Part shown: one piece after another, positions 12,700 to 63,440 of the stretch
How the letters are laid out: each line of letters begins with the position of its first letter
Position numbering within the stretch: position 1 is the first letter of the stretch
NCBI GenBank assembly: GCA_021613375.1
Contig: CM038717.1
Coordinates: 35,504,327 to 35,568,326, forward strand
Direction: 5' to 3'
From: Megaleporinus macrocephalus
Lineage: Eukaryota; Chordata; Actinopteri; Characiformes; Anostomidae
DNA length: 64,000 nucleotides
The notes under the pieces: model-generated
Seen by the model: the letters and a program-made list of their open reading frames with translations, nothing else
What the model was told of the DNA's origin: nothing
Database searches by the model: none
Translations under genes and position numbers: made by a program

Positions 12700-12734
<35 letters not shown>

Positions 12735-32753: not shown

Positions 32754-32808
<55 letters not shown>

Positions 32809-35664: not shown

Positions 35665-35703
<39 letters not shown>

Positions 35704-35997
35704 GGCTGTATAAATCAGGCAGTATTACAGGGAGAGATTGTGTTGATATGATTTCTACTGTAAACCCCTCACACCTGAGAGAGCTGGATCTGAATGAGAA
35801 TAAACTAGATCAATCAGGAGTGCAGAAGCTCTGCAGTCTACTGAAGAATCCTCTCTGTAAACTGGAGAAAGTGATGTAAGTAATACTTCATTAATGGGTT
35901 AATTACACGTGTTTAAGAGCAGCAGCTCTATGTTGTGGGACTGACAGTAATTTAGCAGCAGTTTAGAATACATTCATATTTCCTGTTATTCATGATC

Positions 35998-44596: not shown

Positions 44597-44640
<44 letters not shown>

Positions 44641-47425: not shown

Positions 47426-47463
<38 letters not shown>

Positions 47464-50166
47464 GTTATATTTTGAGTGGATTTAAGATAATTTCATTTGA
47501 AATATGCCATTCTTTGCATTTTAGCAATACGAAACTACATAATGGTCACTGACCACCCATGCAAAATGCAAAAACAACAACAGCAGACAGCAAACATCTG
47601 TCCAATGAACTAAAATACTAAATATAACAAATTGCAAAATAAGAATTATGAAAATATTACAAATAACTTACAGGTTGTTTGTCCTTGTTGCTTCCGTCTG
47701 CAGGCTGTATGAGTCGGGCAGTATTTCAGAGAGAGACTCTGCTGAACTGATTACTGCTTTGACTGTAAACCCCTCACACCTGAGAGAGCTGGATCTGAAT
47801 GAGAATAAACTAGATCAATCAGGAGTGCAGAAGCTCTGCAGTCTGCTGAAGAATCCTCTCTGTAAACTGGAGAAACTGATGTAAGTAATGCTTTATACAA
47901 TGGTTAATTACTTGTTCTTCACAGAGATATCACAGAGTACTACATTAAAACAGTAATTCAGTAATTTAGTATAGATTCAATATATACACAGAATTTATTT
48001 AGGATTGACGTGATTTAAAACTATTCACTAAACTATACTTTTCTAATAACTATTATTGTGTTGATTACTCTTTAATTATCATGTGATAACAATATGTCAA
48101 ACATCTTAAGACTTTATATGTAATATTTATTGAATAAATATCTACCAGGTTCTGGTGGTTGTGTTTATAATTTATTGTAGTTTATTCTCCACCATTTTGT
48201 TCTCATTTTCTTCATTATGTTCAAAAATGAACTTTCTCTCTCTCGCTAAGAATAAACTGAGAGATTCAGTTTTATATTAACCACAAATTAAAATGATGTA
48301 TCGTTTTTGTAGTGTTCTGGCGTTAAGAACCAGTTTCTCTGTTTACAGGATTAAAAAATGCAGTATAAAAGAAAAAGCCTGTGCTGATCTGACTTCAGCT
48401 CTAACCTCAAACCCTTCACACCTGAGAGAGCTGGATCTGAGTGGGAATAAACTGGGAAAATTAGGAATGATGGATCTCTGTTCTCTTCTAAAGAATCAAA
48501 ACTGTAAACTTCAGAAACTACTGTAAGTAACTATTCTAATGAAAGTTATTCACCTCAAACAAAACAGCGTTTATTTTCTATGAAAAAGATTTACAGCATA
48601 TTAACATTAATACACAGGATTTTCATGATTGTTACAGTTTATCAGCTGTGTTATTGTGGGATGAAATTAAACATGATGTATAGTTTTTGTTCTGGCATTA
48701 AGAACCAGTTTATCTGTTTACAGACTTAAAGAATGCAGTATAGAGAAAGACTGTACTGCTCTGACTTCAGCTCTAACCTCAAACCCCTCACACCTGAGAG
48801 AGCTGGATCTGCGTGGGAATAAACTGGGAGATTCTGTGAAGTACCTCGCTGACCTGCTGCAGAAATCCGGATGCAAACTAGAGTAAGTAAATTTAGCACA
48901 GTAATGAAAAAATACCTAAATACTTGAAATCATATGCACATTACAGACAAATCTACCACATACATCCATATCCAGATGTTCTCTCACTCTTCTTTCTCTG
49001 TACAGTCTACTACATACATACATCCATATCCAGATATTCTCTCACTCTTCTTTCTCTGTACAGTCTACTACATACATACATCCATATCCAGATGTTCTCT
49101 CACTCTTCTTTCTCTGTACAGTCTACTACATACATACATCCATATCCAGATGTTCTCTCACTCTTCTTTCTCTGTACAGTCTACTACATACATACATCCA
49201 TATCCAGATGTTCTTTCACTCTTCTTTCTCTGTACAGTCTACTACATACATACATCCATATCCAGATGTTCTCTCACTCTTCTTTCTCTGTACAGTCTAC
49301 TACATACATACATCCATATCCAGATGTCCTCTCACTCTTCTTTCTCTGTACAGTCTACTACATACATACATCCATATCCAGATGTTCTCTCACTCTTCTT
49401 TCTCTGTACAGTCTACTACATACATACATCCATATCCAGATGTTCTCTCACTCTTCTTTCTCTGTACAGTCTACTACATACATCCATCTCCAGATGTTCT
49501 CTCACTCTTCTTTCTTTGTACTGCGCTTTTATTTATTTGAAAGAGTCTCAGAACACTCTGTACCACCGTCTTAACCAGTGACTACTGTTCTTCATATTTA
49601 TATCTATTTAATTCAGTCTGTCTCTCCTTCACTGCTGCACTCAGCACTTTACTTTAAATATACAACTTTGCACATGTTAAGTTTACAGGTGTGTCTGTGC
49701 GTGTATGTCACTGTGTCTGTGTGTGTGTGTGTGTAGGTTGGGTGTGTTTGTTACTTCTGTAATGTCAGTTATCATGCACTGTGAGCTACTGTAACCAAAA
49801 ACAAATTCCTTGTATGTGTGAGTATACTTGGCAAATAAAGTCAGATTCTGATTCTGATTCAAACCAGACCAAGCCTAACAGGAAGGACAAGTTCACAGAA
49901 ATGGGGAGGAGAGCGAAGAGAAGCCAACTAACTAAGTCCTCCTACCTCCCTTCATAGAGTTTGAGCGACAGTCCCACAATTAACCTGCACTACTATTAAC
50001 GCTTTACTTCTCAAAAGAGAAAAAAAACACCATCTGCCACAATAGCAATAATAATAGTAACAGCTAAAATAAACTAAAATAAACTAAAAAACTAAATCAT
50101 ATTTATTAGGCTAAGTAGAGAAGGATAGACATTCTAAAGTTCAAAATAGTAGTAGTAGTAGTAATA

Positions 50167-50197
<31 letters not shown>

Positions 50198-53100
50198 TGA
50201 TCTACAAACAACAATCTTAAAAATGTCTATCCTTCTTCTGTCAGATTAATAATTAAAATGGTGGAGTGACTCCAGGGAGTGGTGTTTTAGAGATTCCTGT
50301 AGTAAATTTCAGCTGGCTGGTGCTCCAGAGCCAATAGCAGTTCAGTAATGCTCTGTGCACCTGAAGGGTGATCCAGTCACTGGAGCCAGTTTGATCATTA
50401 TTTAGAGAACACTGATGTGAAGTGAGTGATCTGTTGATGAACAGAAGCCAATGTGATTCCGCCTCACTGCCAGAGATCACCAGCCTACTGTGTAATACAG
50501 TGTGCAGTGAGCAGTGTAGGGGTCTCTGGTGATACATCTCAGAGTGAAAGATTGAGTCTAAGGGCTTGAGGCTATTGGGAGGTGCATACGTGTATATTAC
50601 ACCATCATAAGTAATAATTCATAACAAAGTACTCTCAGTGACCCTTTTTCTAGTGTGAGAGAAACATGGTTTTCAATACAGTAAACTGAGCTTCTGTCTT
50701 AATTAAATCTACTAGTTCATGTCGGGGCAAATGACTACAGAGTCACGTTATTATGATTCCTACTTTTGACTGCGGCATTGCCTAGGTGGCAGTGTTATGG
50801 TCTGGGGAATGTTTTCATGGTATTTTCTAGACCCACACTTCTATGTGGAAGGCACCCCCAACAGATTTGGGTATGAATCCATCCTTGCAGATCACATACA
50901 CCATACATGCTGAGTGTCTTATCTGGGGCAGATGGGATTTTCCAGCAAGACAATGTGAAACAGCTAGAAATGTCCCATATTGGTTGGAAGAGCTGACCAA
51001 GACTTCCAGGTACTCCACTGGACCCCTAATTCCTCAGATTTAAACCCAATTAAGCATCTGTGTGACGTTGTGTTCGCTCTATGGATCCTCCACCATGCTC
51101 CCTCCAGCAGCAGTGGTGTGCACTGCAGTCAGCATGGCTCCAGATACCTGTGACCACTTACCAGTTGAGTCTCCCAGCCAGACTACATGCTGTTCGTGCT
51201 GCACATGGTGGTTACTCTACTTATTAGCTGGTGCTTGTAATAATGTGACTCGACCATCTAAGTTCATGATAAGTGAAGACATAAACATAATTAAGAACAA
51301 ATGTTTTTAAAATAAAATTGAGCAGTTAATTTCTCGAGAAAGACAGCTTGTGTTGAACATTAAATATCACTGAGGTGGGACACTAAAAAAATTATGATTG
51401 GCTTAGACTGTGCTAGGCCTCAAAACAGCAACTAATCACAGCAGCTGCCAACACCAACCACAAACTAAACCACAGAGAGTCACACTATTTCAGGTACAAG
51501 AAGCAGTACATATGTCTGAACAGCAGCTAGTGAACGATACTCACTTAACTGATGCCAACAACAGTGCACGATAAACTAAATGAACTGTAAGTTACTCCAC
51601 AACACAAAGTAGGAACTGGAGCCTTCTCACCTTTTTCTCCAACATAGCCTTTTATACAAACATCAATATATAAAACAGTTAGAGCACAGTTTCATCATGT
51701 GTTGTATGTTTTAAATATCTCATGCACTCATCACTAATGTTCGTATGCAAGAATGCTATCCAGAAATCTGGCAATGGCTTAAAAAACTCACTATTTAAAG
51801 ATTTGTAAGCAGATTTTGTGAAATTCTCTTGTTTAGGAGTTGATGAGGGAAGTGCAGAGCTGTATTAGGGGTGTAAGCGTGTAATTGTGTAAGATTATAC
51901 AATACAAAGATCTTATAATGAAAAGATTTTGTGTGTACCACAGTTTATCATGCTTGCAATCAAGTCCAAAAGCCAAAAAGTCAACCAAAATAAAAGATAA
52001 TGTAAAAAAATAAAAAAACGTTTTGTGGAAAAACACAAACAAGGTTAGATCGATTAAAAAAGTGAATGTCATCTATAACAGGTAAACAACATGATAACAG
52101 CGAGAAAGGTTTTCTATTAGAAATGTGTCATTTATTCCACAGTAGGACTAATATTATTAATGGAGAATGTTTCATTAAAATTAAATAAGTCAACATACTG
52201 ATGTAACTAAACCTGGTTACATCAGTTCAAACCTAAATGTGTTAGTGCCATACATACATATACACAGTGAGACGGCTGGTGTAATGCATGTAAGACTTAT
52301 TTTCTTCCTTTTCTCCTTTCAGACTGGACCCATCTTGGAGCGAAAGATTTGTTTCTTATTTTTGGGGTAGTTCTAAAAAGTCTGCAGCCACAGATACCGA
52401 GCGGAGCGGATCAGGCCGCACCACCACAGACGCTGAGCAGAGCGGAGCAGAGCCGAGTCAGCTAACAGGGATGAGCGGAGCGGAGCAGGCAGAGCGGACT
52501 GGAGCAGCCTGCACAACCACAGACGCCGAGCCGAGAGGAGGAGCTAAGTTGGCCGACAGAGACAAGTGGAGAGGAGCGGAGCAGGCCACACAACCACAGA
52601 CGCCGAGCGGCGCAGACGGGCCAAGTCAACATACAGAGAGGAGCGGAGAGGAGCAGGCTGCACAACCACAGACGCCAAGCGGGGCAGACAAGACAAGTCG
52701 GCTGACAGTGAAGAGCGGAGAGGAGCAGGCTGCACAACCACAGACGCCAAGCGGGGCAGACAAGCCAAGTCGGCTGACAGTGAAGAGCGGAGAGGAGCAG
52801 GCTGCACAACCACAGACGCCGAGTGGCACAGACGAGACAAGTCAGCCTACAGACAAGAGTGGAGAAGAGCAGGCCGCACAACCACAGACGCCAAGCGGCG
52901 CAGACGAGCCAAGTCGGCCGACAGTAAAGAGCGCAGAGGAGCAGGCTGCACAACCACAGACGCCAAGCGGCGCAGACGAGACAAGTCAGCCTACAGAGAT
53001 GAGCGCAGAGGAGCAGGCTGCACAACCACAGACGCCGAGTGGCACAGACGAGACAAGTCAGCCTACAGACAAGAGTGGAGCGGAGCAGGTCGTACAACCA

Positions 53101-56100
53101 CAGACGCCAAGCGGCGCAGACAAGACAAGTCAGCCTACAGACAAGAGTGGAGAAGAGCAGGCTGCACAACCACAGACGCCAAGCGGCGCAGACGAGCCAA
53201 GTCGGCCGACAATGAAGAGCGCAGAGGAGCAGGCTGCACAACCACAGACGCCGAGTGGCACAGACGAGACAAGTCAGCCTACAGACAAGAGTGGAGAAGA
53301 GCAGGGCTGCACAACCACAGACGCCAAGCGGCGCAGACGAGACAAGTCAGCCGAGAGTAAAGAGCGGAGAGGTACAAACCACAGACGCCGAGCGGCGCAG
53401 ACGAGACAAGTCAGCCGAGAGTAAAGAGCGGAGAGGAACAGGCCGCACAACCACAGATGCCGAGTGACGCAGATGAGCCAAGTCAGCCTACAGAGACGAG
53501 CGGAGAGGAGCAGGCCGCACAACCACAGACGCCGACCGGAGAGGAGCAGCCAAGTCAGCCGACGGGGACGAGCACAGCGGAGCAGGCCACACAACCACAG
53601 ACGTCGAGCGGCGCAGACGAGCCAAGTCGGCCGACAGTAAAGAGTGGAGCGGTGCAGTTCGTACAACCACAGACGCCAAGCAGCGCAGACGAGCCAAGTT
53701 GGCCGACAATGAAGAGTGCAGAGAAGCAGGCTGCACAACCACAGACGCTGAGTGGCACAGACGAGACAAGTCAGCCTACAGACAAGAGTGAAGAGGAGCA
53801 GGCCGTACAACCACAGACGCCAAGCGGCACAGACGAGACAAGTCAGCCTACAGAGACAAGCGGAGTGGAGCAGGCCGTACAACCACAGACGCCAAGCGGC
53901 ACAGACGAGACAAGTCAGCCTACAGAGACGAGCGCAGAGGAGCAGGCTGCACAACCACAGACGCCGAGTGGCACAGACGAGACAAGTCAGCCTACAGACA
54001 AGAGTGGAGAGGAGCAGGCTACACAACCACAGACGCCAAGCGGCACAGACGAGACAGGTCAGCCTACAGAGACGAGTGGAGAGGAGCAGGCTGCACAACC
54101 ACAGACGCCGAGCGGTGCAGACGAGACAGGTCAGCCTACAGTGACGAGCGGAGAGGAGCAGGCCGCACAACCACAGACGCCGAGCGGGGCAGACGAGCCA
54201 AGTCAGCCAACAATGAAGAGCGCAGAAGAGCAGGCCACACAACCACAGACGCCGAGCGGCGCAGACGGGCCAAGTCAACATACAGAGAGGAGCGGAGAGG
54301 AGCAGGCTGCACAACCACAGACGCCAAGCGGGGCAGACAAGACAAGTCGGCTGACAGTGAAGAGCGGAGAGGAGCAGGCTGCACAACCACAGACGCCAAG
54401 CGGGGCAGACAAGCCAAGTCGGCTGACAGTGAAGAGCGGAGAGGAGCAGGCTGCACAACCACAGACGCCGAGTGGCACAGACGAGACAAGTCAGCCTACA
54501 GACAAGAGTGGAGAAGAGCAGGCCGCACAACCACAGACGCCAAGCGGCACAGACGAGCCAAGTCGGCCAACAATGAAGAGCGCAGAGGAGCAGGCTGCAC
54601 AACCACAGACGCCAAGCGGCGCAGACGAGACAAGTCAGCCTACAGAGATGAGCGCAGAGGAGCAGGCTGCACAACCACAGACGCCGAGTGGCACAGACGA
54701 GACAAGTCCAGCCTACAGACAAGAGTGGAGCGGAGCAGGTCGTACAACCACAGACGCCAAGCGGCGCAGACGAGACAAGTCAGCCTACAGACAAGAGTGG
54801 AGAAGAGCAGGCTGCACAACCACAGACGCCAAGCGGCGCAGACGAGCCAAGTCGGCCGACAATGAAGAGCGCAGAGGAGCAGGCTGCACAACCACAGACG
54901 CCGAGTGGCACAGACGAGACAAGTCAGCCTACAGACAAGAGTGGAGAAGAGCAGGCTGCACAACCACAGACGCCAAGCGGCGCAGACGAGACAAGTCAGC
55001 CGAGAGTAAAGAGCGGAGAGGTACAACCACAGACGCCGAGCGGCGCAGACGAGACAAGTCAGCCGAGAGTAAAGAGCGGAGAGGAACAGCCGCACAACCA
55101 CAGATGCCGAGTGACGCAGATGAGCCAAGTCAGCCTACAGAGACGAGCGGAGAGGAGCAGGCCGCACAACCACAGACGCCGACCGGAGAGGAGCAGCCAA
55201 GTCAGCCGACGGGGACGAGCACAGCGGAGCAGGCCACACAACCACAGACGTCGAGCGGCGCAGACGAGCCAAGTCGGCCGACAGTAAAGAGTGGAGCGGT
55301 GCAGTTCGTACAACCACAGACGCCAAGCAGCGCAGACGAGCCAAGTTGGGCCGACAATGAAGAGTGCAGAGAAGCAGGCTGCACAACCACAGACGCTGAG
55401 TGGCACAGACGAGACAAGTCAGCCTACAGACAAGAGTGAAGAGGAGCAGGCCGTACAACCACAGACGCCAAGCGGCACAGACGAGACAAGTCAGCCTACA
55501 GAGACAAGCGGAGTGGAGCAGGCCGTACAACCACAGACGCCAAGCGGCACAGACGAGCCAAGTTGGCCGACAATGAAGAGTGCAGAGAAGCAGGCTGCAC
55601 AACCACAGACGCTGAGTGGCACAGACGAGACAAGTCAGCCTACAGACAAGAGTGAAGAGGAGCAGGCCGTACAACCACAGACGCCAAGCGGCACAGACGA
55701 GACAAGTCAGCCTACAGAGACAAGCGGAGTGGAGCAGGCCGCACAACCACAGATGCCGAGTGACGCAGATGAGCCAAGTCAGCCTACAGAGACGAGCGGA
55801 GAGGAGCAGGCCGCACAACCACAGACGCCGACCGGAGAGGAGCAGCCAAGTCAGCCGACGGGGACGAGCACAGCGGAGCAGGCCACACAACCACAGACGT
55901 CGAGCGGCGCAGACGAGCCAAGTCGGCCGACAGTAAAGAGTGGAGCGGTGCAGTTCGTACAACCACAGACGCCAAGCAGCGCAGACGAGCCAAGTTGGCC
56001 GACAATGAAGAGTGCAGAGAAGCAGGCTGCACAACCACAGACGCTGAGTGGCACAGACGAGACAAGTCAGCCTACAGACAAGAGTGAAGAGGAGCAGGCC

Positions 56101-58468
56101 GTACAACCACAGACGCCAAGCGGCACAGACGAGACAAGTCAGCCTACAGAGACAAGCGGAGTGGAGGCAGGCCGTACAACCACAGACACCAGCGGCACAG
56201 ACGAGACAAGTCAGCCTACAGAGACGAGCGGAGCGGAGCAGGCCTCACAACCACAGACGCCGAGTGGCACAGACGAGACAAGTCAGCCTACAGACAAGAG
56301 TGGAGAGGAGCAGGCTACACAACCACAGACGCCAAGCGGCACAAGACGAGACAGGTCAGCATACAGAGACGAGTGGAGAGGGAGCAGGCTGCACAACCAC
56401 AGACGCCGAGCGGTGCAGACGAGACAGGTCAGCCTACAGTGACGAGCGGAGAGGAGCAGGGCCGCACAACCACAGACGCCGAGCGGGGCAGACGAGCCAA
56501 GTCAGCCAACAATGAAGAGCGCAGAAGAGCAGGCCACACAACCACAGACGCCGAGCGGCGCAGACGTGCCAAGTCAACATACAGAGAGGAGCGAGAGGAG
56601 CAGGCTGCACAACCACAGACGCCAAGCGGGGCAGACAAGACAAGTCGGCTGACAGTGAAGAGCGGAGAGGAGCAGGCTGCACAACCACAGACGCCAAGCG
56701 GGGGCAGACAAGCCAAGTCGGCTGACAGTGAAGAGCGGAGAGGAGCAGGCTGCACAACCACAGACGCCGAGTGGCACAGACGAGACAAGTCAGCCTACAG
56801 ACAAGAGTGGAGAAGAGCAGGCCGCACAACCACAGACGCCAAGCGGCACAGACGAGCCAAGTCGGCCAACAATGAAGAGCGCAGAGGAGCAGGCTGCACA
56901 ACCACAGACGCCAAGCGGCGCAGACGAGACAAGTCAGCCTACAGAGATGAGCGCAGAGGAGCAGGCTGCACAACCACAGACGCCGAGTGGCACAGACGAG
57001 ACAAGTCAGCCTACAGACAAGAGTGGAGCGGAGCAGGTCGTACAACCACAGACGCCAAGCGGCGCAGACGAGACAAGTCAGCCTACAGACAAGAGTGGAG
57101 AAGAGCAGGCTGCACAACCACAGACGCCAAGCGGCGCAGACGAGCCAAGTCGGCCGACAATGAAGAGCGCAGAGGAGCAGGCTGCACAACCACAGACGCC
57201 GAGTGGCACAGACGAGACAAGTCAGCCTACAGACAAGAGTGGAGAAGAGCAGGCTGCACAACCACAGACGCCAAGCGGCGCAGACGAGACAAGTCAGCCG
57301 AGAGTAAAGAGCGGAGAGGTACAACCACAGACGCCGAGCGGCGCAGACGAGACAAGTCAGCCGAGAGTAAAGAGCGGAGAGGAACAGGCCGCACAACCAC
57401 AGATGCCGAGTGACGCAGATGAGCCAAGTCAGCCTACAGAGACGAGCGGAGAGGAGCAGGCCGCACAACCACAGACGCCGACCGGAGAGGAGCAGCCAAG
57501 TCAGCCGACGGGGACGAGCACAGCGGAGCAGGCCACACAACCACAGACGTCGAGCGGCGCAGACCGAGCCAAGTCGGCCGACAGTAAAGAGTGGAGCGGT
57601 GCAGTTCGTACAACCACAGACGCCAAGCAGCGCAGACGAGCCAAGTTGGCCGACAATGAAGAGTGCAGAGAAGCAGGCTGCACAACCACAGACGCTGAGT
57701 GGCACAGACGAGACAAGTCAGCCTACAGACAAGAGTGAAGAGGAGCAGGCCGTACAACCACAGACGCCAAGCGGCACAGACGAGACAAGTCAGCCTACAG
57801 AGACAAGCGGAGTGGAGCAGGCCGTACAACCACAGACGCCAAGCGGCACAGACGAGACAAGTCAGCCTACAGAGACGAGCGCAGAGGAGCAGGCTGCACA
57901 ACCACAGACGCCGAGTGGCACAGACGAGACAAGTCAGCCTACAGACAAGAGTGGAGAGGAGCAGGCTACACAACCACAGACGCCAAGCGGCACAGACGAG
58001 ACAGGTCAGCCTACAGAGACGAGTGGAGAGGAGCAGGCTGCACAACCACAGACGCCGAGCGGTGCAGACGAGACAGGTCAGCCTACAGTGACGAGCGGAG
58101 AGGAGCAGGCCGCACAACCACAGACGCCGAGCGGGGCAGACGAGCCAAGTCAGCCAACAATGAAGAGCGCAGAAGAGCAGGCCACACAACCACAGACGCC
58201 GAGCGGCGCAGACGAGACAAGTCAGCCTACAGAGACAAGCGGAGTGGAGCAGGTCGTACAACCACAGACGCCGAGTGGCACAGACGAGACAAGTCAGCCT
58301 ACAGACAAGAGTGGAGAGGAGCAGGTCGCACAACCACAGACGCCAAGCGGCACAGACGAAACAGGTCAGCCTACAGAGATGAGTGGAGAGGAGCAGGCTG
58401 CACAACCACAGACGCCGAGCAGTGCAGACGGGCTAAGTCAGCCGACAGTGACGAGCGGAGAGGAGTAG
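4389..58468 (+). CDS. Giant NLR-type LRR gene, C-terminal exon array
   Basis: This span collects the + strand exons that splice together in one phase: 36 intact LRR exons, one truncated exon, and a repeat-coding last exon. Each LRR exon has two ribonuclease-inhibitor-type repeats (LxxLxLxxN..., with SHLIELDL as the commonest core) and both boundaries in phase 2, so any exon can be skipped without losing frame. The architecture and exon size match fish NLRC3/NLRP12-like receptors, where such LRRs form the ligand-sensing or regulatory part of cytosolic innate immune proteins. Neither an initiation exon nor a NACHT ATPase domain is in the window, so the 5' end lies to the left. No poly(A) signal plus new start is seen between modules, favouring one gene, but two or more genes with shared or alternative ends cannot be excluded. 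It is much longer than the usual 5-15 LRR exons. Confidence 0.65.
4814..4984 (+). CDS. LRR exon 2 (type B)
   Basis: 171 bp, acceptor TGTGTAG, donor GTAAAT. It opens [16 protein letters not shown] and has [13 protein letters not shown]. It is one codon shorter than the usual type A exon and two shorter than the long type B exons, with the loss near the C-terminal helix ([10 protein letters not shown]). Confidence 0.85.
4985..5810. other. Intron sequence, no gene seen
   Basis: AT-rich intron between LRR exons 2 and 3, left of the Tc1-like insertion. No coding exon, RNA gene or tandem repeat is visible. Confidence 0.5.
5811..6337. mobile_element. Internally deleted Tc1/mariner-like element
   Basis: The ends are inverted copies of CACTATATGGCCAAAAG-type sequence (5816-5832, and reversed at about 6318-6335). 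The interior keeps scraps of a Tc1-like transposase gene and its 3' region (for example GGAGGCTGTTAAAGCTG and CCAGCAAGCTCATATAGGAG), but most of the transposase is missing. At about 525 bp it is a non-autonomous copy. It sits in the intron before LRR exon 3. I cannot confirm a clean TA target duplication. Confidence 0.7.
6424..6597 (+). CDS. LRR exon 3 (type A variant)
   Basis: 174 bp, acceptor TTCTGCAG, donor GTGAGT. It reads [16 protein letters not shown] and then [16 protein letters not shown], a divergent type A with an asparagine-rich ladder segment. It lies 86 bp after the Tc1-like element, so that insertion has not disturbed the acceptor. Confidence 0.85.
6874..7050 (+). CDS. LRR exon 4 (type B)
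   Basis: 177 bp, acceptor TCTTCCAG, donor GTGAGC. It begins [16 protein letters not shown] in place of the usual [11 protein letters not shown], then [13 protein letters not shown]. The end [10 protein letters not shown] is typical of type B exons. Confidence 0.85.
7420..7593 (+). CDS. LRR exon 5 (type C)
   Basis: 174 bp, acceptor TTTCTGCAG, donor GTGTGT. Type C signature: [17 protein letters not shown], then [13 protein letters not shown]. It has a W at the first full codon (WLNSP) where other type C exons have F or L. Confidence 0.85.
7802..7975 (+). CDS. LRR exon 6 (type A)
   Basis: 174 bp, acceptor TCCACAG after a CT-rich tract, donor GTATGT. It reads [16 protein letters not shown] with [20 protein letters not shown]. 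The second repeat is more divergent ([11 protein letters not shown]) than in other type A exons. Confidence 0.85.
7976..8807. other. Intron with a dispersed repeat fragment
   Basis: Intron between LRR exons 6 and 7. Around 8350-8470 lies sequence ending CCATCACAGGGCAGACACA, which resembles a fish dispersed repeat seen in many loci. I do not assign it to a class. A (CT)n tract at about 8762-8803 directly supplies the polypyrimidine tract of the next acceptor. Confidence 0.4.
8808..8981 (+). CDS. LRR exon 7 (type A/F-like)
   Basis: 174 bp, acceptor CTCTGCAG fed by a CT microsatellite, donor GTGAGT. It reads [16 protein letters not shown], then [16 protein letters not shown]. Its LDLRGNK core is closer to the terminal type F exons (36-37) than to types A or B. 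It precedes the first of the three nine-exon modules. Confidence 0.85.
9262..9438 (+). CDS. LRR exon 8 (type B, module 1 position 1)
   Basis: 177 bp, acceptor CTTCAG, donor GTGAAA (weak at +4 and +5). It reads [16 protein letters not shown] with [16 protein letters not shown]. It opens the first B-C-A-B-C-A-B-D-E module, matching exons 17 and 27 in position and length. Confidence 0.8.
9439..9857. other. Intron sequence, no gene seen
   Basis: AT-rich intron of 419 bp between exons 8 and 9. A short direct duplication of TTATTATTAACTGCAGG occurs at about 9781-9820. Nothing else is recognised. Confidence 0.4.
9858..10031 (+). CDS. LRR exon 9 (type C, module 1 position 2)
   Basis: 174 bp, acceptor TTCTGAAG, donor GTCAGT. 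It reads [19 protein letters not shown], then [13 protein letters not shown]. The residue before the final LTKVL is C where relatives have S (CDCL versus CDSL). Confidence 0.85.
10154..10327 (+). CDS. LRR exon 10 (type A, module 1 position 3)
   Basis: 174 bp, acceptor TCTGCAG, donor GTTAGT. It reads [16 protein letters not shown] with [15 protein letters not shown], almost identical to exon 1. The intron after it is only 77 bp. Confidence 0.87.
10405..10578 (+). CDS. LRR exon 11 (type B, module 1 position 4)
   Basis: 174 bp, acceptor TTTTTTCAG, donor GTAGAT. It reads [20 protein letters not shown] and [16 protein letters not shown]. It is one codon shorter than its counterparts in modules 2 and 3 (exons 21 and 30, each 177 bp). 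Confidence 0.85.
10761..10934 (+). CDS. LRR exon 12 (type C, module 1 position 5)
   Basis: 174 bp, acceptor TTTTTTAG, donor GTATGT. It reads [19 protein letters not shown] and then [18 protein letters not shown], with LNLS replacing the LDLS seen in nearly every other exon. Confidence 0.86.
11157..11330 (+). CDS. LRR exon 13 (type A, module 1 position 6)
   Basis: 174 bp, acceptor TTCTGCAG, donor GTGAGT. It reads [20 protein letters not shown], then [17 protein letters not shown]. The intron downstream contains TAATGCCTATGTTTT, also present before exon 24, which shows the shared origin of modules 1 and 2. Confidence 0.87.
11444..11611 (+). CDS. LRR exon 14 (type B short, module 1 position 7)
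   Basis: 168 bp, three codons shorter than the long type B exons, exactly like exons 24 and 33 at the same module position. It reads [20 protein letters not shown] and ends FADSSKVLR. Acceptor CTCCAG, donor GTGAGA. Confidence 0.86.
11841..12014 (+). CDS. LRR exon 15 (type D, module 1 position 8)
   Basis: 174 bp, acceptor TTTTCAG, donor GTAAGC. It reads [18 protein letters not shown] and [17 protein letters not shown], then DPHYRLEKL. Type D occurs only at this module position (also exons 25 and 34). Confidence 0.86.
12015..12738. other. Intron with CT microsatellite acceptor
   Basis: 724-bp AT-rich intron. Positions 12703-12734 are a (CT)n run immediately before the TTTCTGCAG acceptor of exon 16. 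No gene or mobile element is recognised in the rest. Confidence 0.45.
12739..12909 (+). CDS. LRR exon 16 (type E, module 1 position 9)
   Basis: 171 bp, acceptor TTTCTGCAG, donor GTAAGT. It reads [20 protein letters not shown] and [17 protein letters not shown]. The intron that follows is closely similar for about 120 bp to the intron after exon 26, so module duplication carried intron sequence with it. Confidence 0.86.
12910..13454. other. Intron sequence, duplicated beginning
   Basis: The first 120 bases match the start of the intron after exon 26 (GTAAGTAATACTTCATTAAT in both). The remainder, up to the LINE fragment, is unremarkable AT-rich sequence with no exon. Confidence 0.5.
13455..14325 (-). 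mobile_element. LINE 3' UTR fragment, minus orientation
   Basis: The sequence matches the 3' UTR of the large LINE at 27.8-32.15 kb block by block: CCCCCAATGAGCAACCCAGA, GGAACCAGATTCAAAAAGGG, the CTCCACCGTCAGCAAGC block and the CCCCCAGATCTGCACCTC block, all in the same order and orientation. No coding region remains, so this is a heavily 5'-truncated copy. The 112-codon + frame at 13790-14128 lies inside it and is spurious. Confidence 0.7.
14326..14734. other. Unassigned intron sequence
   Basis: Short stretch between the LINE fragment and the 30-bp minisatellite. It contains a purine-rich run around 14440-14490 and no coding similarity that I can see. Confidence 0.4.
14735..16116. repeat. 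30-bp minisatellite, about 46 copies
   Basis: Tandem unit ATCAGCACTGAACTGATCTA plus ACACCATCCAT, with an exact 30-bp period across more than 20 sequence lines. Variation is limited to a few positions (GATC, GAAC or GATA in the middle; ACCA or ACCG near the end). Because 30 is a multiple of three, the minus strand is open for 345 and 117 codons as [14 protein letters not shown] decapeptides. With no splice context, no other domain and only repeats, I take these as non-coding. Confidence 0.95.
16117..17591. other. AT-rich intron left of the CACTA-like insertion
   Basis: It contains repetitive TTAATGGTATATTAATGAAAG-like motifs at about 16830 and 17060, similar to 3540-4340. The final 40 bases (AACAGAATCTGAGAGCGAGC and on) match the sequence at 39828-39853, which marks the left half of a duplicated intron split by the transposon. 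Confidence 0.5.
17592..17920. repeat. Left terminal and subterminal repeats of the CACTA-like element
   Basis: The terminal CACAGCAAAATC is followed by a dense set of AGTGTTA, TGACACTC and CACAGTGTTACTTTATGACA motifs in both orientations. Such subterminal motif clusters are the usual transposase-binding regions of CACTA elements. The right end (about 26080-26149) has fewer of them. Confidence 0.65.
18169..20607 (-). pseudogene. tnp2-like EnSpm/CACTA transposase with one in-frame stop
   Basis: An 812-codon frame read leftward from ATG at 20607, broken only by TAA at 18586-18588. Reading resumes in the same frame to the stop at 18169. The N-terminus has a C2H2 finger (CFICQ...THLRIVH, about residues 4-24) and a second Cys/His cluster ([10 protein letters not shown]...KKHLSKVH). 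The core has [16 protein letters not shown] (probable first catalytic Asp), [13 protein letters not shown], and [20 protein letters not shown] (probable second Asp), then HHFMIHYP and [10 protein letters not shown]. These match animal tnp2-like transposases. The last 130 codons match the usual C-terminal extension of the family. The first Met is right at the first zinc finger, as expected. Whether the TAA is real or an assembly error decides if it is a pseudogene. Confidence 0.75.
20613..24626 (-). CDS. SAMD3-like gene carried by the transposon
   Basis: Minus-strand spliced gene resembling the fish 'sterile alpha motif domain-containing protein 3-like' family. Coding exons that I can join in phase, 5' to 3': 24626-24542 (start [19 protein letters not shown]), 24221-24075, 23531-23381, 23302-23233, 23058-22932, 22770-22677, 22336-22004, 21908-21734, 21609-21488, 20916-20613. 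All have GT-AG borders except where noted. Hallmarks are [46 protein letters not shown] and the C-terminal [20 protein letters not shown]. Two junctions are doubtful. Exon 3 ends in phase 2 while exon 4 appears to start in phase 0. The last acceptor also fits the family only if a degenerate AA at about 20929-20930 is used, since the CTGCAG at 20917-20922 gives the wrong phase. A MITE sits in that last intron. Molecular function is unknown, and co-mobilisation with the transposase is inferred from position. Confidence 0.7.
20996..21344. mobile_element. Foldback MITE nested in the SAMD3-like gene
   Basis: Nearly palindromic 349-bp unit. The left arm starts AAAGGAGAACTCCGGTGTGA and reaches GAATGGGCGCTATAGGGCAT; the right arm has ATGCCCTATAGCGCCCATTC and ends CACTGAAGTTTTCCTTT. 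The arms are about 150 bp with a loop of about 75 bp. It lies wholly in the last intron of the SAMD3-like gene, so it is younger than the host element. The superfamily is not assigned, as no clear target duplication is seen. Confidence 0.75.
24645..26149 (-). promoter_or_regulatory. 5' region of the transposon genes and right end
   Basis: Upstream of the first coding exon of the SAMD3-like gene (acceptor at 24645-24646) there is a long stretch with no coding exon. A non-coding first exon and promoter are expected here. A possible donor (AAAA then GTTAAG, read on the minus strand) lies near 25900, but I cannot prove it. A 113-bp snapback sequence occupies 25471-25583, and many GCTAGC/AGCTAAC motifs surround it. 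The right terminal repeat ends at 26149. Confidence 0.35.
25471..25583. repeat. Snapback inverted repeat
   Basis: TATGGCGT...GTCAAAACTCGAGCG on the left faces CGCGCTCAAGTTTTGACGCCATA on the right, with about 60 bp between the arms. It would form a strong hairpin in single-stranded form. It lies between the expected promoter region of the SAMD3-like gene and its first coding exon, inside the CACTA-like element. Confidence 0.7.
26150..26674. other. Right half of the split intron
   Basis: From about 26225 the sequence matches 39870-40007 (ATTGAACTGTAT..., CTGTATTTTCTGATTTC), the intron before LRR exon 27. This confirms that the CACTA-like element entered a duplicated intron. No exon is seen before 26675. 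Confidence 0.6.
26675..26851 (+). CDS. LRR exon 17 (type B, module 2 position 1)
   Basis: 177 bp, acceptor CTTTCAG, donor GTGATT. It reads [16 protein letters not shown] with [16 protein letters not shown]. Its closest relative is exon 27 ([16 protein letters not shown]). Both differ from module 1 exon 8 in the KGEG motif. Confidence 0.85.
27096..27269 (+). CDS. LRR exon 18 (type C, module 2 position 2)
   Basis: 174 bp, acceptor TTCTGCAG, donor GTAAGT. It reads [19 protein letters not shown], then [19 protein letters not shown]. The AIEICDSL and QIKNLSDLV features are shared only with exon 28. Confidence 0.86.
27524..27697 (+). CDS. LRR exon 19 (type A, module 2 position 3)
   Basis: 174 bp, acceptor TCTATAG, donor GTGAGT. 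It reads [20 protein letters not shown] with [15 protein letters not shown] and ends [13 protein letters not shown]. Its upstream intron resembles that of exon 29 (position 3), but the NQCCKL...LG end resembles exon 32 (position 6). This suggests exchange between type A exons. Confidence 0.85.
28869..30097 (-). pseudogene. LINE reverse transcriptase, frameshifted
   Basis: Segment 29783-30097 carries the RT N-terminal blocks ([28 protein letters not shown]). Segment 28869-29726 carries [13 protein letters not shown] (catalytic Asp), [30 protein letters not shown] (catalytic ADD) and ALHWLPV. A frame change separates the two pieces, and another near 28890 cuts off the C-terminus, whose continuation can still be read toward 28650. 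All catalytic residues are present but the ORF is not intact. Confidence 0.85.
30311..31460 (-). pseudogene. LINE endonuclease and linker, frameshifted
   Basis: Segment 30894-31460 reads [33 protein letters not shown] and [14 protein letters not shown], the APE-like endonuclease blocks of CR1/L2 elements. It shifts frame around 30900-30990 into 30311-30991 ([12 protein letters not shown], then the basic linker before the RT). The SDHYLI block is the last catalytic motif of the domain. One indel separates these parts. Confidence 0.85.
31644..32123 (-). pseudogene. LINE ORF1 SGNH-esterase domain, truncated
   Basis: 159 codons with [12 protein letters not shown] (block III, GxND) and [12 protein letters not shown] (block V, DxxH), diagnostic of SGNH hydrolases found in ORF1 of some CR1/L2 LINEs. 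The N-terminal part with the catalytic-Ser block is missing, because the element ends near 32150. It cannot be a working ORF1 protein. Confidence 0.75.
32155..32231 (+). pseudogene. LRR exon 20, 3' remnant (type A)
   Basis: Only the last 77 bases of a type A exon survive: [20 protein letters not shown] followed by a normal donor GTTAGT. The 5' half and acceptor are replaced by the LINE 5' end. Its best match is exon 29 ([12 protein letters not shown]). Without an acceptor it should be skipped, and skipping from exon 19 to 21 keeps phase 2. Confidence 0.75.
32312..32488 (+). CDS. LRR exon 21 (type B, module 2 position 4)
   Basis: 177 bp, acceptor TCTCCAG, donor GTAAAG. It reads [16 protein letters not shown] and [16 protein letters not shown]. 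It pairs with exon 30 at the same module position (both follow a KISHLL exon by a short intron). Confidence 0.86.
32489..33356. other. Intron with GA microsatellite, duplicated in module 3
   Basis: Positions 32758-32799 are a (GA)n run. Around 33205-33300 the sequence GCTGCTGTGTAGTGGGAGAG and its surroundings recur at 42218-42300 in the equivalent intron of module 3. No exon is visible. Confidence 0.55.
33357..33530 (+). CDS. LRR exon 22 (type C, module 2 position 5)
   Basis: 174 bp, acceptor TTCCACAG, donor GTGTGT. It reads [39 protein letters not shown] and CRPQKLK. It is close to exon 31 with the same CRPQKLK end. An E replaces the G of the usual IQGD. Confidence 0.87.
33590..34250 (+). 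mobile_element. Tc1-like transposon relic
   Basis: Non-coding remnant in the intron between exons 22 and 23. It starts around ACAGTCATATGGAAATATTA and includes CCTAGCAAGTTCAGCCCAAG and ATCATCAAGGGACCTACATG, which correspond to the helix-turn-helix part of Tc1-like transposase genes. Stops and a large internal deletion leave no usable frame. Confidence 0.5.
34394..34567 (+). CDS. LRR exon 23 (type A, module 2 position 6)
   Basis: 174 bp, acceptor TCTGCAG, donor GTGAGT. It reads [20 protein letters not shown] and [17 protein letters not shown]. The GC replaced by EC and the VLFS segment distinguish it from exon 10. Confidence 0.87.
34722..34889 (+). CDS. LRR exon 24 (type B short, module 2 position 7)
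   Basis: 168 bp, the short form shared with exons 14 and 33. It reads [20 protein letters not shown] and ends IDSSKTLR. Acceptor CTCCAG, donor GTGAGA. The preceding intron is only 154 bp and resembles that of exon 14. Confidence 0.87.
35067..35240 (+). CDS. LRR exon 25 (type D, module 2 position 8)
   Basis: 174 bp, acceptor TTTACAG, donor GTAAGC. It reads [18 protein letters not shown] and [17 protein letters not shown], then [10 protein letters not shown]. Very similar to exon 15. Confidence 0.87.
35705..35875 (+). CDS. LRR exon 26 (type E, module 2 position 9)
   Basis: 171 bp, donor GTAAGT. The acceptor CTGCAG directly follows a (CT)n run at about 35666-35700. It reads [20 protein letters not shown] with [17 protein letters not shown]. 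It ends KVM where exon 16 ends KLM. Confidence 0.87.
35876..36640. repeat. Intron with (TTA)n microsatellite
   Basis: The start duplicates the intron after exon 16. Positions 36001-36052 are a pure (TTA)n run. A short CCCTAACCCTAACCCTA at about 36297-36313 is too short to be called telomeric repeat. No exon is seen. Confidence 0.6.
36640..36960 (-). mobile_element. LINE reverse-transcriptase fragment
   Basis: On the minus strand [19 protein letters not shown] corresponds to the GPLLFxLYLLPLG block of L2/CR1 reverse transcriptases, followed by a degraded ADD region ([10 protein letters not shown]). Only about 300 bp remains with no further domain. It is a third LINE remnant in the locus. Confidence 0.55.
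36961..37825. other. Intron sequence, no gene seen
   Basis: Mixed sequence without a recognisable exon. The open frame at 37623-37844 shows no known domain and overlaps the start of the 85-bp repeats, so I do not call it. Confidence 0.4.
37826..38684. repeat. 85-bp minisatellite, about 10 copies
   Basis: GATGAAGGCTAGTAAAGCGT recurs at 37840, 37925, 38010, 38095 and onward with an exact 85-bp step. Copies differ at a few sites only (AGCG/AGTG, GGTG/GGCG, GAAAG/GAAAT), so homogenisation is recent. It lies in the intron between exons 26 and 27, the boundary of modules 2 and 3. Confidence 0.95.
38685..40007. other. Intron upstream of module 3
   Basis: Mostly unremarkable AT-rich sequence. From about 39825 to 40007 it is homologous to the two flanks of the CACTA-like element (17552-17591 and 26225-26674) and gives the uninterrupted version of that site. 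No exon. Confidence 0.6.
40008..40184 (+). CDS. LRR exon 27 (type B, module 3 position 1)
   Basis: 177 bp, acceptor CTTCCAG, donor GTAAAT. It reads [20 protein letters not shown] with [16 protein letters not shown]. Its closest relative is exon 17. Confidence 0.86.
40296..40469 (+). CDS. LRR exon 28 (type C, module 3 position 2)
   Basis: 174 bp, acceptor CTTTCAG, donor GTAAGT. It reads [19 protein letters not shown] and [14 protein letters not shown], the pair of features shared with exon 18. The intron before it is only 111 bp. Confidence 0.87.
40724..40897 (+). CDS. LRR exon 29 (type A, module 3 position 3)
   Basis: 174 bp, acceptor TCTACAG, donor GTCAGT. It reads [20 protein letters not shown] with [20 protein letters not shown]. 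This is the intact counterpart of the LINE-truncated exon 20. Confidence 0.87.
41006..41182 (+). CDS. LRR exon 30 (type B, module 3 position 4)
   Basis: 177 bp, acceptor CTCCAG, donor GTAGAT. It reads [20 protein letters not shown] with [17 protein letters not shown] replaces the N or D of the usual GNDPG/GNNPG. Confidence 0.87.
41183..42357. other. Intron, partly duplicated from module 2
   Basis: 1.18-kb intron. The last 160 bases align with 33190-33356 before exon 22, and CCCTACAGTCTTA around 42072 matches 33051. No exon, RNA gene or intact mobile element is visible. Confidence 0.5.
42358..42531 (+). CDS. LRR exon 31 (type C, module 3 position 5)
   Basis: 174 bp, acceptor TCTTCAG, donor GTGTGT. 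It reads [19 protein letters not shown] with [20 protein letters not shown] and CRPQKLK. It is nearly the same as exon 22. Confidence 0.88.
42876..43049 (+). CDS. LRR exon 32 (type A, module 3 position 6)
   Basis: 174 bp, acceptor TTCTGCAG, donor GTGAGT. It reads [20 protein letters not shown] with [17 protein letters not shown] and ends [10 protein letters not shown], like exon 19. Confidence 0.87.
43155..43322 (+). CDS. LRR exon 33 (type B short, module 3 position 7)
   Basis: 168 bp short form, acceptor CTCCAG, donor GTAAGA. It reads [20 protein letters not shown] and [17 protein letters not shown]. The C-terminal part (FVNLGRKLR) has diverged from DSSK of exons 14 and 24. Confidence 0.87.
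43323..45443. other. Long intron with CA microsatellite and repeat-like sequence
   Basis: 2.1-kb intron. Positions 44597-44638 are a (CA)n run. Around 45150-45310, GGAGGAGCC and GGCAAGTTGTGACAG-like sequence resembles fish dispersed repeats, but I cannot name a family. No exon is seen. Confidence 0.45.
45444..45617 (+). CDS. LRR exon 34 (type D, module 3 position 8)
   Basis: 174 bp, acceptor CTCTACAG, donor GTAAGT. It reads [20 protein letters not shown] with [17 protein letters not shown], then [10 protein letters not shown]. It is the most divergent type D, with ANNCLN where exons 15 and 25 have ACKSL. Confidence 0.85.
45618..47703. other. Long intron with GC-richer block and repeat debris
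   Basis: 2.1-kb intron. The block at about 45820-46450 is richer in CpG than its surroundings and holds CGTTATCGGGAAACACACCC-like sequence, probably a degraded DNA transposon. Around 47040-47400, repeated TAGCAACCAC motifs flank a LINE-tail-like piece ending TTGATTTGATTTGAT. A (TAA)n run occupies 47427-47462. No exon is recognised. Confidence 0.4.
47704..47880 (+). CDS. LRR exon 35 (type E, module 3 position 9)
   Basis: 177 bp, two codons longer than exons 16 and 26 because it has [11 protein letters not shown] instead of ISTVNPSH. It reads [20 protein letters not shown] and [17 protein letters not shown]. Acceptor GTCTGCAG, donor GTAAGT. It closes module 3 and its acceptor has no CT microsatellite. 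Confidence 0.87.
47881..48348. other. Intron sequence, no gene seen
   Basis: 468-bp AT-rich intron between exons 35 and 36. The last part (GTTCTGGCGTTAAGAACCAG) is duplicated before exon 37 at about 48690, so exons 36 and 37 arose by tandem duplication. Confidence 0.5.
48349..48522 (+). CDS. LRR exon 36 (type F)
   Basis: 174 bp, acceptor TTTACAG, donor GTAAGT. It reads [20 protein letters not shown] with [17 protein letters not shown]. It lies outside the nine-exon modules and pairs with exon 37. Confidence 0.86.
48724..48882 (+). CDS. LRR exon 37 (type F, last LRR exon)
   Basis: 159 bp, the shortest intact exon. It reads [20 protein letters not shown] and [19 protein letters not shown], ending CKLE before donor GTAAGT. 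The end is five codons earlier than usual (no KLR/KLM end), which fits its role as the exon joined to a non-LRR tail. It leaves GA, completed by A of the exon at 52323. Confidence 0.86.
48957..49510. repeat. 58-bp minisatellite with repeated acceptor-like motif, about 9.5 copies
   Basis: ACATCCATATCCAGATGTTC recurs every 58 bp. Each unit also contains CTTCTTTCTCTGTACAG, a good polypyrimidine tract plus AG. It lies in the 3.44-kb intron between the last LRR exon and the tail exon. The long + frames here (up to 216 codons) are by-products of the repeat. Confidence 0.95.
49600..49862 (+). mobile_element. LINE or SINE 3' tail
   Basis: A (TG)n run near 49714-49735 is followed by ATTCCTTGTATGTGTGAGTA, then AATAAAGTCAGATTCTGATTCTGATTC. 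This 3' end with a short TGATTC tandem tail is common in fish non-LTR elements. No coding part is attached. Confidence 0.5.
49863..50769. other. Intron with trinucleotide microsatellite
   Basis: Positions about 50148-50199 are an (AGT)n/(AAT)n run. The minus frame at 50253-50537 has no recognisable domain. Nothing else is supported. Confidence 0.4.
50770..51260 (+). pseudogene. Tc1/mariner-like transposase relic
   Basis: + strand remnant with [11 protein letters not shown] (catalytic-domain strand), an FQQDN-like segment near 50945, and SDLNPIKHL at about 51035-51061, the pattern preceding the third catalytic residue of Tc1-like enzymes. Several stops and frame changes make it dead. Neither terminal repeat is evident. 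Confidence 0.65.
51261..52322. other. 3' part of the last intron
   Basis: No exon or element is recognised. The last 30 bases (CTTATTTTCTTCCTTTTCTC and on) form a long pyrimidine tract ending TTTCAG at 52322, the acceptor of the tail exon. Confidence 0.5.
52323..58468 (+). CDS. Last exon: unique linker plus 24-residue repeat tail
   Basis: It starts after TCCTTTCAG in phase 2, matching exon 37. The unique part reads [19 protein letters not shown], passes through variant units ([16 protein letters not shown]), and enters the main frame of 24-residue units such as [19 protein letters not shown] plus EEQAA. As sequenced the frame shifts at about 53304 and stops at 53424, giving about 366 residues. 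The main frame is then recovered after each indel and ends VTSGEE-stop at 58468. If the indels are errors, the tail is about 2000 residues, acidic, and low in hydrophobic residues, so probably disordered. No domain is recognised. The usual fish NLR terminal B30.2 exon is absent. The function is unknown. An alternative is that the real transcript ends earlier. Confidence 0.55.
52560..58468. repeat. 72-bp tandem repeat, about 82 units, higher-order structure
   Basis: CAACCACAGACGCC recurs every 72 bp with few exceptions (shortened PRVKSGE units and an added [13 protein letters not shown] block). The + strand is T-poor, so all three + frames stay open for long stretches and at least one minus frame does too. 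Blocks recur as larger copies: 52566-53360 is close to 54245-55040 and 56540-57340, and 53430-54240 is close to 57390-58200. Single-base gains or losses cluster between 53300 and 57570. Confidence 0.95.
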
Positions 58469-58563: not shown

Positions 58564-58569
58564 AATAAA
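58564..58569 (+). terminator. Poly(A) signal of the LRR gene
   Basis: AATAAA 96 bp after the stop at 58468, in AT-rich 3' UTR sequence. It is the first canonical hexamer after the repeat tail, which supports the end of the transcript here. Confidence 0.6.
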
Positions 58570-60695: not shown

Positions 60696-61876
60696 CACTG
60701 TACGATATTTTCAATCGCGTACTTAGCTCCAGCTCAAACTGTACGACTAAATCGCAGGGTTTAAAAGTTCACAGCTCACGATATCTCATACTATACGACA
60801 CAATGCTCTCATGCGGCCTGACTGCTCACACTGTACGTCCACACACACACACACACACACATCGGACTCTTGTATCTGGAATTGCAGCGTAAAAACGGAA
60901 GAAGAAAAAGTAGAAGAACCCGGAAGTGGGGAGACGCTCACCTGAAATGCGATAAATGTCCAACAAACAAAAGCGCGCTGCCTTGGCAGTTTGTGCCATT
61001 ATGTGTGCAGTGTGCAGCAATTTGTGCCATTATGTGTGCAGTGTGCAGCAATTTGTGCCATTATGTGTGCAGTGTGCAGCAATTTGTTCCATTATGTGTG
61101 CAGTGTGCAGCAATTTGTTCCATTATGTGTGCAGTGTGCAGCAATTTGTGCCATTATGTGTGCAGTGTGCAGCAATTTGTGCCATTATGTGTGCAGTGTG
61201 CAGCAATTTGTGCAATTATGTGTGCAATGTGCAGCAATTTGTTCCATTATGTGTGCAGTGTACAGCAATTTGTGCCATTATGTGTGCAGTGTGCAGCAAT
61301 TTGTGCACTTATGTGTGCAATGTGCAGCAATTTGTGCCATTATGTGTGCAGTGTGCAGCAATTTGTGCCATTATGTGTGCAGTGTGCAGCAATTTGTGCC
61401 ATTATGTGTGCAGTGTGCAGCAATTTGTGCCATTATGTGTGCAGTGTGCAGCAATTTGTGCCATTATGTGCAGAAACACCTACAAAAAGGCGACGTGCAT
61501 GGACAAGGAAATGGCTGGGTAGACGTGGGCAGTAAGGTCTGGAGGTAAGCAGCAACATCTAAATTGCACGTTATTGGTCATTATTGGCTGGTGTCTTACG
61601 CTGCACACGCCAAGGTAATAGGTGTAAGTAGCTAATATCTAGTCCGCTTCTGTGTTTGCGCATGCGCAGTGTGAGAGGTTGCGGTGACTCGGCTCGTGCC
61701 ACTGCTTCAACAGTGCGATACTCTCACGAGGAGCGATTTGAATTTCAAACATGTTTTCTGATCAGGAGTTGCCCGTGAGGTGTTAATCGCTCCCCGTTAC
61801 CCCATGTGAACTATACGATGCACGACATGCGATTGAGCTGAAACTCGGCCCGATCGCAAAAATAGTCACACGAGTG
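60696..61876. mobile_element. Possible non-autonomous DNA element holding a minisatellite
   Basis: The left edge (CACTGTACGATATTTTCAAT) and the reverse complement of the right edge (CACTCGTGTGACTATTTTTG) are imperfect inverted matches. Internal TACGAC/GTCGTG motifs also face each other. No transposase is present. Boundaries are uncertain. Confidence 0.3.
60988..61475. repeat. 31-bp minisatellite, about 15-16 copies
   Basis: Unit AATTTGTGCCATTATGTG plus TGCAGTGTGCAGC, exact 31-bp steps (61021, 61052 and so on). Since 31 is not a multiple of three, each frame cycles through all three readings, and all are open. That explains the three overlapping + frames of 185-221 codons. Not a gene. Confidence 0.95.
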
Positions 61877-62864: not shown

Positions 62865-63440
62865 ATGTAGGTATTGTGAGTCTACAGTTTCTCATTAGGT
62901 TGAATGTATAACTCTAAATGTAGACATTGTGATATAAACTGAGTCTACAGTTGCTCATAGGGTTAAATGTATAACTCTAAATGTTGGTATTGTATATAAA
63001 CTGAGTTCTACAGTTTCTCATCAGGTTGAATGTATAACTCTAAATGTAGGTATTGTATATAAACTGAGTTACAGTTTCTCATTAGGTTGAATGTATAACT
63101 CTAAATGTAGGTATTGAATATAAACTGAGTTACAGTTTCTCATTAGGTTGAATGTATAACTCTAAATGTAGGTATTGTGTATAAACTGAGTTACAGTTTC
63201 TCATTAGGTTGAATGTATAACTCTAAATGTTGGTATTGTGTATAAACTGAGTTACAGTTTCTCATTAGGTTGAATGTATAACTCTAAATGTTGGTATTGT
63301 GTATAAACTGAGTTACAGTTTCTCATTAGGTTGAATGTATAACTCTAAATGTTGGTATTGTATATAAACTGAGTTATATACTTTCTAATTAGGTTGAATG
63401 TATAACTCTAAATGTAGGTATTGTATATAAACTGAGTTTA
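62865..63440. repeat. 61-bp minisatellite, about 9 copies
   Basis: GGTTGAATGTATAACTCTAA recurs at 61-bp steps (63024, 63085, 63146, 63207) with small variation (TAGGTATTG/TTGGTATTG). The edges are degraded. Non-coding. Confidence 0.92.

Follow-up and report, generated by a model that had tools for sequence, protein, structure and literature searches.

Results and Discussion

LRR Exons and a Terminal Repeat Array

A total of 36 intact LRR exons were found on the plus strand of the window, by which we mean the whole 64,000-nucleotide stretch of Megaleporinus macrocephalus DNA that was analysed. All 36 have an AG acceptor, all 36 have a GT donor, and all have lengths that are multiples of three; one is 159 nt long and the remaining 35 are 168–177 nt. 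Every exon is phase 2-2 and, when joined, the series encodes 2,082 residues with zero stops. The LRRs are of the ribonuclease-inhibitor type with one unit per symmetric exon, as in fish-specific NLRs; the solved structure that matches best is the ribonuclease inhibitor 3tsr, and the Pfam-type label is LRR_6. Downstream of the series lies a 72-bp tandem array that ends at a stop codon. The features that bear on the 3' end of this putative gene are as follows.

4389–48882, plus strand: intact LRR exons (n = 36)
32134–32232, plus strand: broken LRR exon, 3' part only, adjoining a minus-strand cluster of retroelement-like ORFs
48724–48882, plus strand: last LRR exon, 159 nt, ending in phase 2
48883–52322, plus strand: putative intron of 3,440 nt, deduced from phases, acceptor scores, and the linker profile
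48958–49521, plus strand: 58-bp minisatellite with an acceptor-like site in its units (rival splice targets)
52323–52386, plus strand: start of the putative terminal exon, with acceptor CAG/A and an aromatic linker (from the sequence, the acceptor score, and the linkers of relatives)
52387–52590, plus strand: degenerate partial units in another frame, with a 5-bp insertion (from unit anchoring)
52591–58465, plus strand: 72-bp tandem array in the frame of a 24-residue unit (from TRF and unit anchoring)
58466–58468, plus strand: TAG in the unit frame at the 3' edge of the array
58564–58569, plus strand: AATAAA, a possible poly(A) signal, weak by itself

The LRR exons comprise a few recurring types arranged in three blocks (4389–12909, 26675–35875, and 40008–48882), and in each block an exon resembling LYKSGSI or LYESGSI stands last or nearly last. 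Stretches common to the blocks, introns included, align at ~70–88%, and thus the array seems to have grown through block duplication. The minus-strand ORFs that adjoin the truncated LRR exon at 32134 span 28606–32232 and appear retroelement-like by eye, and two further minus-strand ORFs of 138 and 673 aa (18172–20607) perhaps belong to a transposable element.

Relatives of the LRR Series

Relatives were collected as 219 different proteins (the best 120 of 7,655 together with 120 of 140), and the names shown are all those of fish. The protein P0125 (Colossoma macropomum LOC118803910 isoform X2; 3,340 aa) lists FISNA, NACHT, and LRRs, with the motif GVAGIGKS at residue 426. Its alignment with residues 1–2082 of the window series follows the exons almost one for one, and 70% of 2,019 aligned residues are identical (BLASTP gives 64% over 2,152 columns). 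The window exon at 8809 pairs over 13 residues only. Between the partners of the window exons at 4815 and 6875, P0125 carries additional LRR residues, and its penultimate LRR is the counterpart of the last LRR exon of the window. Such colinearity supports a single gene running across the whole array of the window.

No large ORF of the FISNA/NACHT type was seen in the 64-kb window. Since P0125 and P0152 list both domains, FISNA and NACHT would be expected upstream of the window. It should be noted that the close matches P0001, P0045, and P0164 list neither domain; they may be proteins made up of LRRs alone or incomplete gene models. A B30.2 domain or any other folded C-terminal domain within the window was considered and set aside, as no fitting ORF was seen; no B30.2-like ORF was seen on the plus strand, and a single YWEV match at 50573 lies amid stops.

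The Proposed Junction Between the Last LRR Exon and the Terminal Exon

The first-pass annotation of this DNA had proposed that the last LRR exon ends in phase 2 at a strong donor and that an exon with a long pyrimidine tract, a CAG, and the matching phase begins at 52323. Both proposals are borne out. The last LRR exon ends in AAACTAGA, directly followed by GTAAGT, and its protein ends in SGCKLE, the usual KLR being absent. The leave-one-out score of its donor is 7.52, where the 36 LRR donors span 1.25–13.8. At 52323, the pyrimidine tract and CAG are present and the matching frame is opened there. With a weight matrix trained on the acceptors of the 36 LRR exons, the acceptor at 52323 scores 14.64, the highest of 1,364 AGs between 48900 and 60000. 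Window-wide, 29 of 4,885 AGs score at least as high, 24 of them LRR acceptors that themselves went into the matrix. The acceptor at 52323 thus exceeds chance.

The peptide that follows each acceptor was also compared to a profile of the terminal linkers of 26 relatives. Among the 930 phase-2 acceptors followed by at least 20 open codons, 52323 ranked first (score of 7.0), with a mild bias in its favor in that the linkers in the profiles came from searches whose query included the window linker. Ranks 2 and 3 were occupied by AGs within the 52323 linker itself. A profile restricted to 12 characiform linkers was tried as a test and did not single out 52323, which ranked just 32 of 930. Taken by itself, the linker profile is weak evidence: shuffled versions of the window linker scored as high in 78 of 5,000 cases with the 26-linker profile and in 1,109 of 5,000 with the 12-linker profile, and in a six-frame scan the window linker was absent from the six best listed. 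Moreover, alignments of several relatives cross the junction into their terminal segments (P0163, 3e-23; P0172, 2e-22; P0152, 7e-21; P0138 and P0164, both 1e-18), with E-values that apply to the 219 proteins and to which the LRR part contributes most. Together, acceptor rank and the linker and tail homology in annotated relatives support the splice from 48882 to 52323 that had been proposed. The junction is well supported; an open frame beyond it is not.

The next-best acceptors after 52323 between 48900 and 60000 are nine identical sites scoring 13.83 in the 58-bp minisatellite just 3' of the last LRR donor. The acceptor-like site in this repeat is TTCTTTCTCTGTACAG, and the minisatellite could mislead splicing as a decoy or supply alternative ends.

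Composition and Frame of the Putative Terminal Exon

Tandem Repeats Finder (TRF) places the array at 52491–58465 (83.2 copies, 83% matches), and unit anchoring recovers 83 units from 52514, the first degenerate and the last partial. Two degenerate units before the array are in the TTTDAE frame, and a 5-bp insertion then gives the QPQTPSG frame. The 72-bp array, the stop (TAG), and the AATAAA that had been reported were all located, the last at 58564, with the caution that this hexamer is present in 15% of 120-nt stretches drawn at random from the window. The GC content is 0.61 in the array vs. 0.31 in each flank. In the consensus unit, 9 of the 24 residues are P, T, or S, and the net charge counted from that consensus is -4. 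The helical (amphipathic) moment of the linker yields P = 0.25 for the window alone; over 27 related linkers the Fisher sum is 100 on 54 degrees of freedom, a result that is only suggestive, since the linkers are related to one another. When the tail alone was searched against proteins, none of the 7,997 scored candidates (~180–570 aa) had an E-value at or below 0.01.

The assembled sequence does not read openly through the array as had been claimed. The frame set by the junction stays in the unit frame for ~10 units, is then broken, and reaches a stop at 53422 after 367 codons. Of the 83 units, 13 have lengths that break the frame: the degenerate first unit is 77 bases long, and the other 12 are 73, 64, 71, or 74. 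Two further units are short by exactly 9 bases. The array consists of higher-order copies with the same order of unit types (units 1–23; units 24–41 plus 45–55, with 42–44 extra; and units 56–78). In genuine divergence, substitutions far outnumber short indels. Copies A (units 1–23) and C (units 56–78) differ by 7 substitutions. They also differ by 5 length changes of one base, none of which occurs in more than one copy: those in units 10 and 11 belong to A and those in units 56, 58, and 70 to C. The middle copy has private length changes in units 30, 35, 39, 50, 51, 53, and 54. Each of the 12 frame-breaking lengths after the first unit is private to one of several near-identical copies. Because the length changes are copy-private and the differences are rich in indels relative to few substitutions, the pattern suggests that the frame breaks are assembly errors; errors in single-pass long reads are described as mainly indels (PMC6868369). 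Units 50, 51, and 53 also show 2, 5, and 3 differing positions, respectively, relative to their sisters, and thus some differences go beyond indels.

Evidence for Coding

Among 32 distinct complete units (of 75 complete units in all), the unit frame contains no stops, and the other two plus-strand frames contain 17 and 3. Openness was rejected as a test of coding: one minus-strand frame likewise lacks stops in these units, an ORF of 501 aa runs in a minus frame of the array, and other arrays in the window, with units of 30, 58, and 31 bp, contain ORFs of up to 352, 225, and 237 aa. With these other readings and arrays also open, openness is weak evidence. In all, eight window arrays, including the 72-bp array, have units of at least 18 bp and at least 5 copies. 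The 30-bp minisatellite (14731–16115), which has 46 units, contains a minus-strand frame open over 352 codons and is itself a control against equating openness with coding. Further long minisatellites lie at 37816–38681, 60986–61470, and 62877–63438 (units of 85, 31, and 61 bp).

Of the six frames, the unit frame has the lowest pairwise dN/dS-like ratio, 0.46, the same value as obtained for 66 control pairs of LRR exons. CpG sites hold 32% of the diversity in the array, and the low pairwise ratio is in part due to CpG decay. In a permutation stratified by base and CpG, the synonymous share of diversity was 0.361 vs. a null of 0.32 (P = 0.26); by variant type, there were 19 synonymous types vs. 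16.9 expected (P = 0.26). Codon constraint on the tail is thus neither demonstrated nor excluded.

Terminal Segments in Relatives

Among the matches listed, at least 25 aa follow the last matched LRR in 76 of the 219 relatives and at least 60 aa in 49, although some of the 76 segments are further LRRs or unrelated domains (e.g., P0142, P0218, and P0117). In 26 relatives the linker was aligned. These linkers mostly start with LD or a like pair, have 1–6 aromatic residues in 24, and are followed by sequence rich in S, T, E, D, K, and Q. Judged by name, all 26 proteins presumably belong to Otomorpha (anchovy, milkfish, cypriniforms including carps, characins, catfishes, and electric fish); taxonomic placement was looked up for Prochilodus, Colossoma, and Sardina. 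No perch-like fish was recognised among the 76 proteins with terminal segments in the matches listed, and perch-like matches such as P0019 of Lates end shortly past the LRRs. The tails of relatives are those of gene predictions, the proteins being unproven. These annotated linkers and low-complexity tails support the earlier proposal that an NLR-type LRR protein would carry a disordered tail of the P/T/S/E/Q kind.

Tandem repeats beyond all 100 shuffles were detected in 8 of the 65 tails of at least 40 aa (P0037, P0201, P0152, P0122, P0164, P0170, P0137, and P0163), with the qualification that the P0122 repeat sits in the linker itself and that P0137 and P0163 have two copies only. By eye, the repeat units of the eight tails are unlike each other and unlike the window unit; on the simplest reading they may have been born independently. 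In Leuciscus chuanchicus, the 9-residue unit DLSSVVDKS of P0037, a protein whose C-terminal end is DLSSVVDKHEYGSSV, is similar to the last part of the P0069 tail, which has no repeats (PDLSSVEDKPEYGSSV), as if the P0037 repeat had grown from a pre-existing tail. In P0201 (Sardina pilchardus), P0122 (Xyrauchen texanus), and P0002 (Megalobrama), a repetitive stretch rich in Gly, Ala, Val, and Ser follows soon past the last LRR, in the place occupied by the aromatic linker in other relatives.

Interpretation and Alternatives

These observations are probably best explained if the window holds the 3' part of a gene for a giant, many-LRR fish NLR whose last LRR exon is spliced to a terminal exon with a linker and a repeat tail. 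Exon phases, splice signals, colinearity with a FISNA-NACHT-LRR protein, and the presence of linkers and tails at the same place in relatives all point to this structure, for which a transcript would be expected. It is also conceivable, if unlikely, that the splice is real and the tail short, with the frame breaks true and the protein ending at 53422 after ~10 units and a shifted stretch. Such a protein would match the sequence as assembled; its tail of ~366 residues would still be long, as most of the 76 terminal segments in relatives, of which the first 170 residues each were considered, are 28–170 aa; and the near-identity of the array copies leaves copy number uncertain, so that it may be a product of assembly. 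The distribution of changes argues otherwise, since the 12 frame-breaking lengths past the first unit are copy-private while most substitutions are common to copies, and the first break (one extra base in unit 10) is absent in sister units 33 and 65.

That the array is an ordinary untranslated minisatellite, the gene ending at the last LRR exon or at another exon, appears distinctly unlikely. The abundance of arrays in the window, three others of which are open for 225–352 aa, would accord with it, as would the lack of significant codon constraint and the differing frame of the first degenerate units, but it would leave unexplained the rank and phase of the 52323 acceptor, the resemblance of the linker to the terminal segments of relatives, a last LRR exon that is short like the last LRR of relatives, and a stop in the unit frame at the very edge of the array. 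A different tail, reached by splicing from the last LRR exon to an acceptor within the 58-bp minisatellite (48958–49521), is very improbable. The nine acceptors there, at 13.83, do open phase-2 frames of 37–178 codons, and use of the nearest would create a 123-nt intron, but the peptides they would yield fall below zero against the 26-linker profile, and no such tail was seen among the 76 relatives (first 170 residues each).

If the gene does extend through the linker and repeat tail, the terminal exon would encode an aromatic linker of ~20–25 residues followed by a disordered acidic tail, which a 72-bp minisatellite may have expanded to dozens of 24-residue units, up to the TAG at the 3' edge of the array. 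A mucin-like extension, which the first-pass annotation had raised as a possibility, would imply O-glycosylated P/T/S repeats on a protein that is secreted or sits in a membrane, whereas NLRs are cytosolic. Through the linker, the LRR solenoid might dock by its C-terminal cap to a membrane or a partner, a role that we propose with less confidence than the gene structure. The tail could serve as a flexible spacer or a multivalent surface whose presence lasts while its sequence does not; since tail sequence is unconserved between species and presence is often kept, such a function would fit better than a folded domain. Slippage in the array could alter tail length freely, because units of 3n bases preserve the frame.

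More tentatively, the terminal exon of giant Otomorph NLRs may be a repeated birthplace of coding minisatellites, in which herrings, carps, and characins independently acquired unrelated repeats of 9–24 residues and selection keeps a long, flexible, polar tail rather than its sequence. If so, tail length would be a fast-changing and individually variable trait of an immune sensor. A linker with a hypervariable disordered tail, if real, would also represent a different C-terminal module for receptors that lack B30.2, one whose length can change quickly. For annotation, it should be noted that such exons lie in tandem arrays, which can come out broken in long-read assemblies, and tails may therefore be missing or truncated in gene models.

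Comparison with Known Systems

Accounts of fish NLRs describe features that the window shares. LRRs are reported to show strict exonic modularity (PMC6642158), and groups 2b and 4 of the zebrafish NLR-B30.2 (NLR-C) family are described as lacking B30.2 and as possibly having more than 20 LRRs (Howe et al., 2016; PMC4852459), with one LRR per exon, as in the window, where 36 intact exons were found. In that family B30.2 has been proposed as the recognition module (PMC4852459). The excerpted description of groups 2b and 4 does not mention a terminal linker-tail exon or other C-terminal module (PMC4852459), and the excerpted account of NLR-C architecture in eLife 2024 (PMC11192531) does not mention such a tail. 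In the literature searched, mostly titles and the beginnings of abstracts, no account of a linker-tail terminal exon of NLRs was found, an absence that is not proof.

Among individual proteins, P0125 of C. macropomum shares nearly the same LRR exons and an aromatic linker past the last LRR (DDLKGWFSWVSSLWK) and differs from the window in its 46-residue acidic tail without repeats and in one extra LRR at the end. P0163 of Prochilodus magdalenae matches the last LRR exon of the window best (79%). P0163 and P0172 of Prochilodus have a comparable terminal linker (SGCKLLLDRSF..WSWWRGD), whereas their tails are 64 and 51 aa, that of P0163 ending in two 14-residue repeats. Similarly, Danio rerio si:ch211-11p18.6 (P0126) continues from its last LRR into an aromatic linker and an acidic S/E/D tail, in this case 62 residues long and repeat-free.

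The first-pass annotation knew of no NLR with a long repeat tail of this sort. That view does not hold, as Astyanax mexicanus P0152 and P0164, Sardina pilchardus P0201, and Leuciscus P0037, all present in databases, are likewise LRR proteins with tandem-repeat ends. Their repeat periods are 17 (P0152), 17 (P0164), 22 (10 + 12; P0201), and 18 (two 9s; P0037), and the repeats are unrelated by eye to the window unit. Unlike the window, all four have shorter tails, and P0201 and P0037 are without the aromatic linker. Because Otomorph relatives have a linker and a polar low-complexity tail, in some cases repetitive, the window tail is not unprecedented. If copy number and frame hold, it would be ~2,000 residues long, the longest among the cases compared, and it seems to represent the far end of the variation in a hypervariable terminal exon of Otomorph NLRs.
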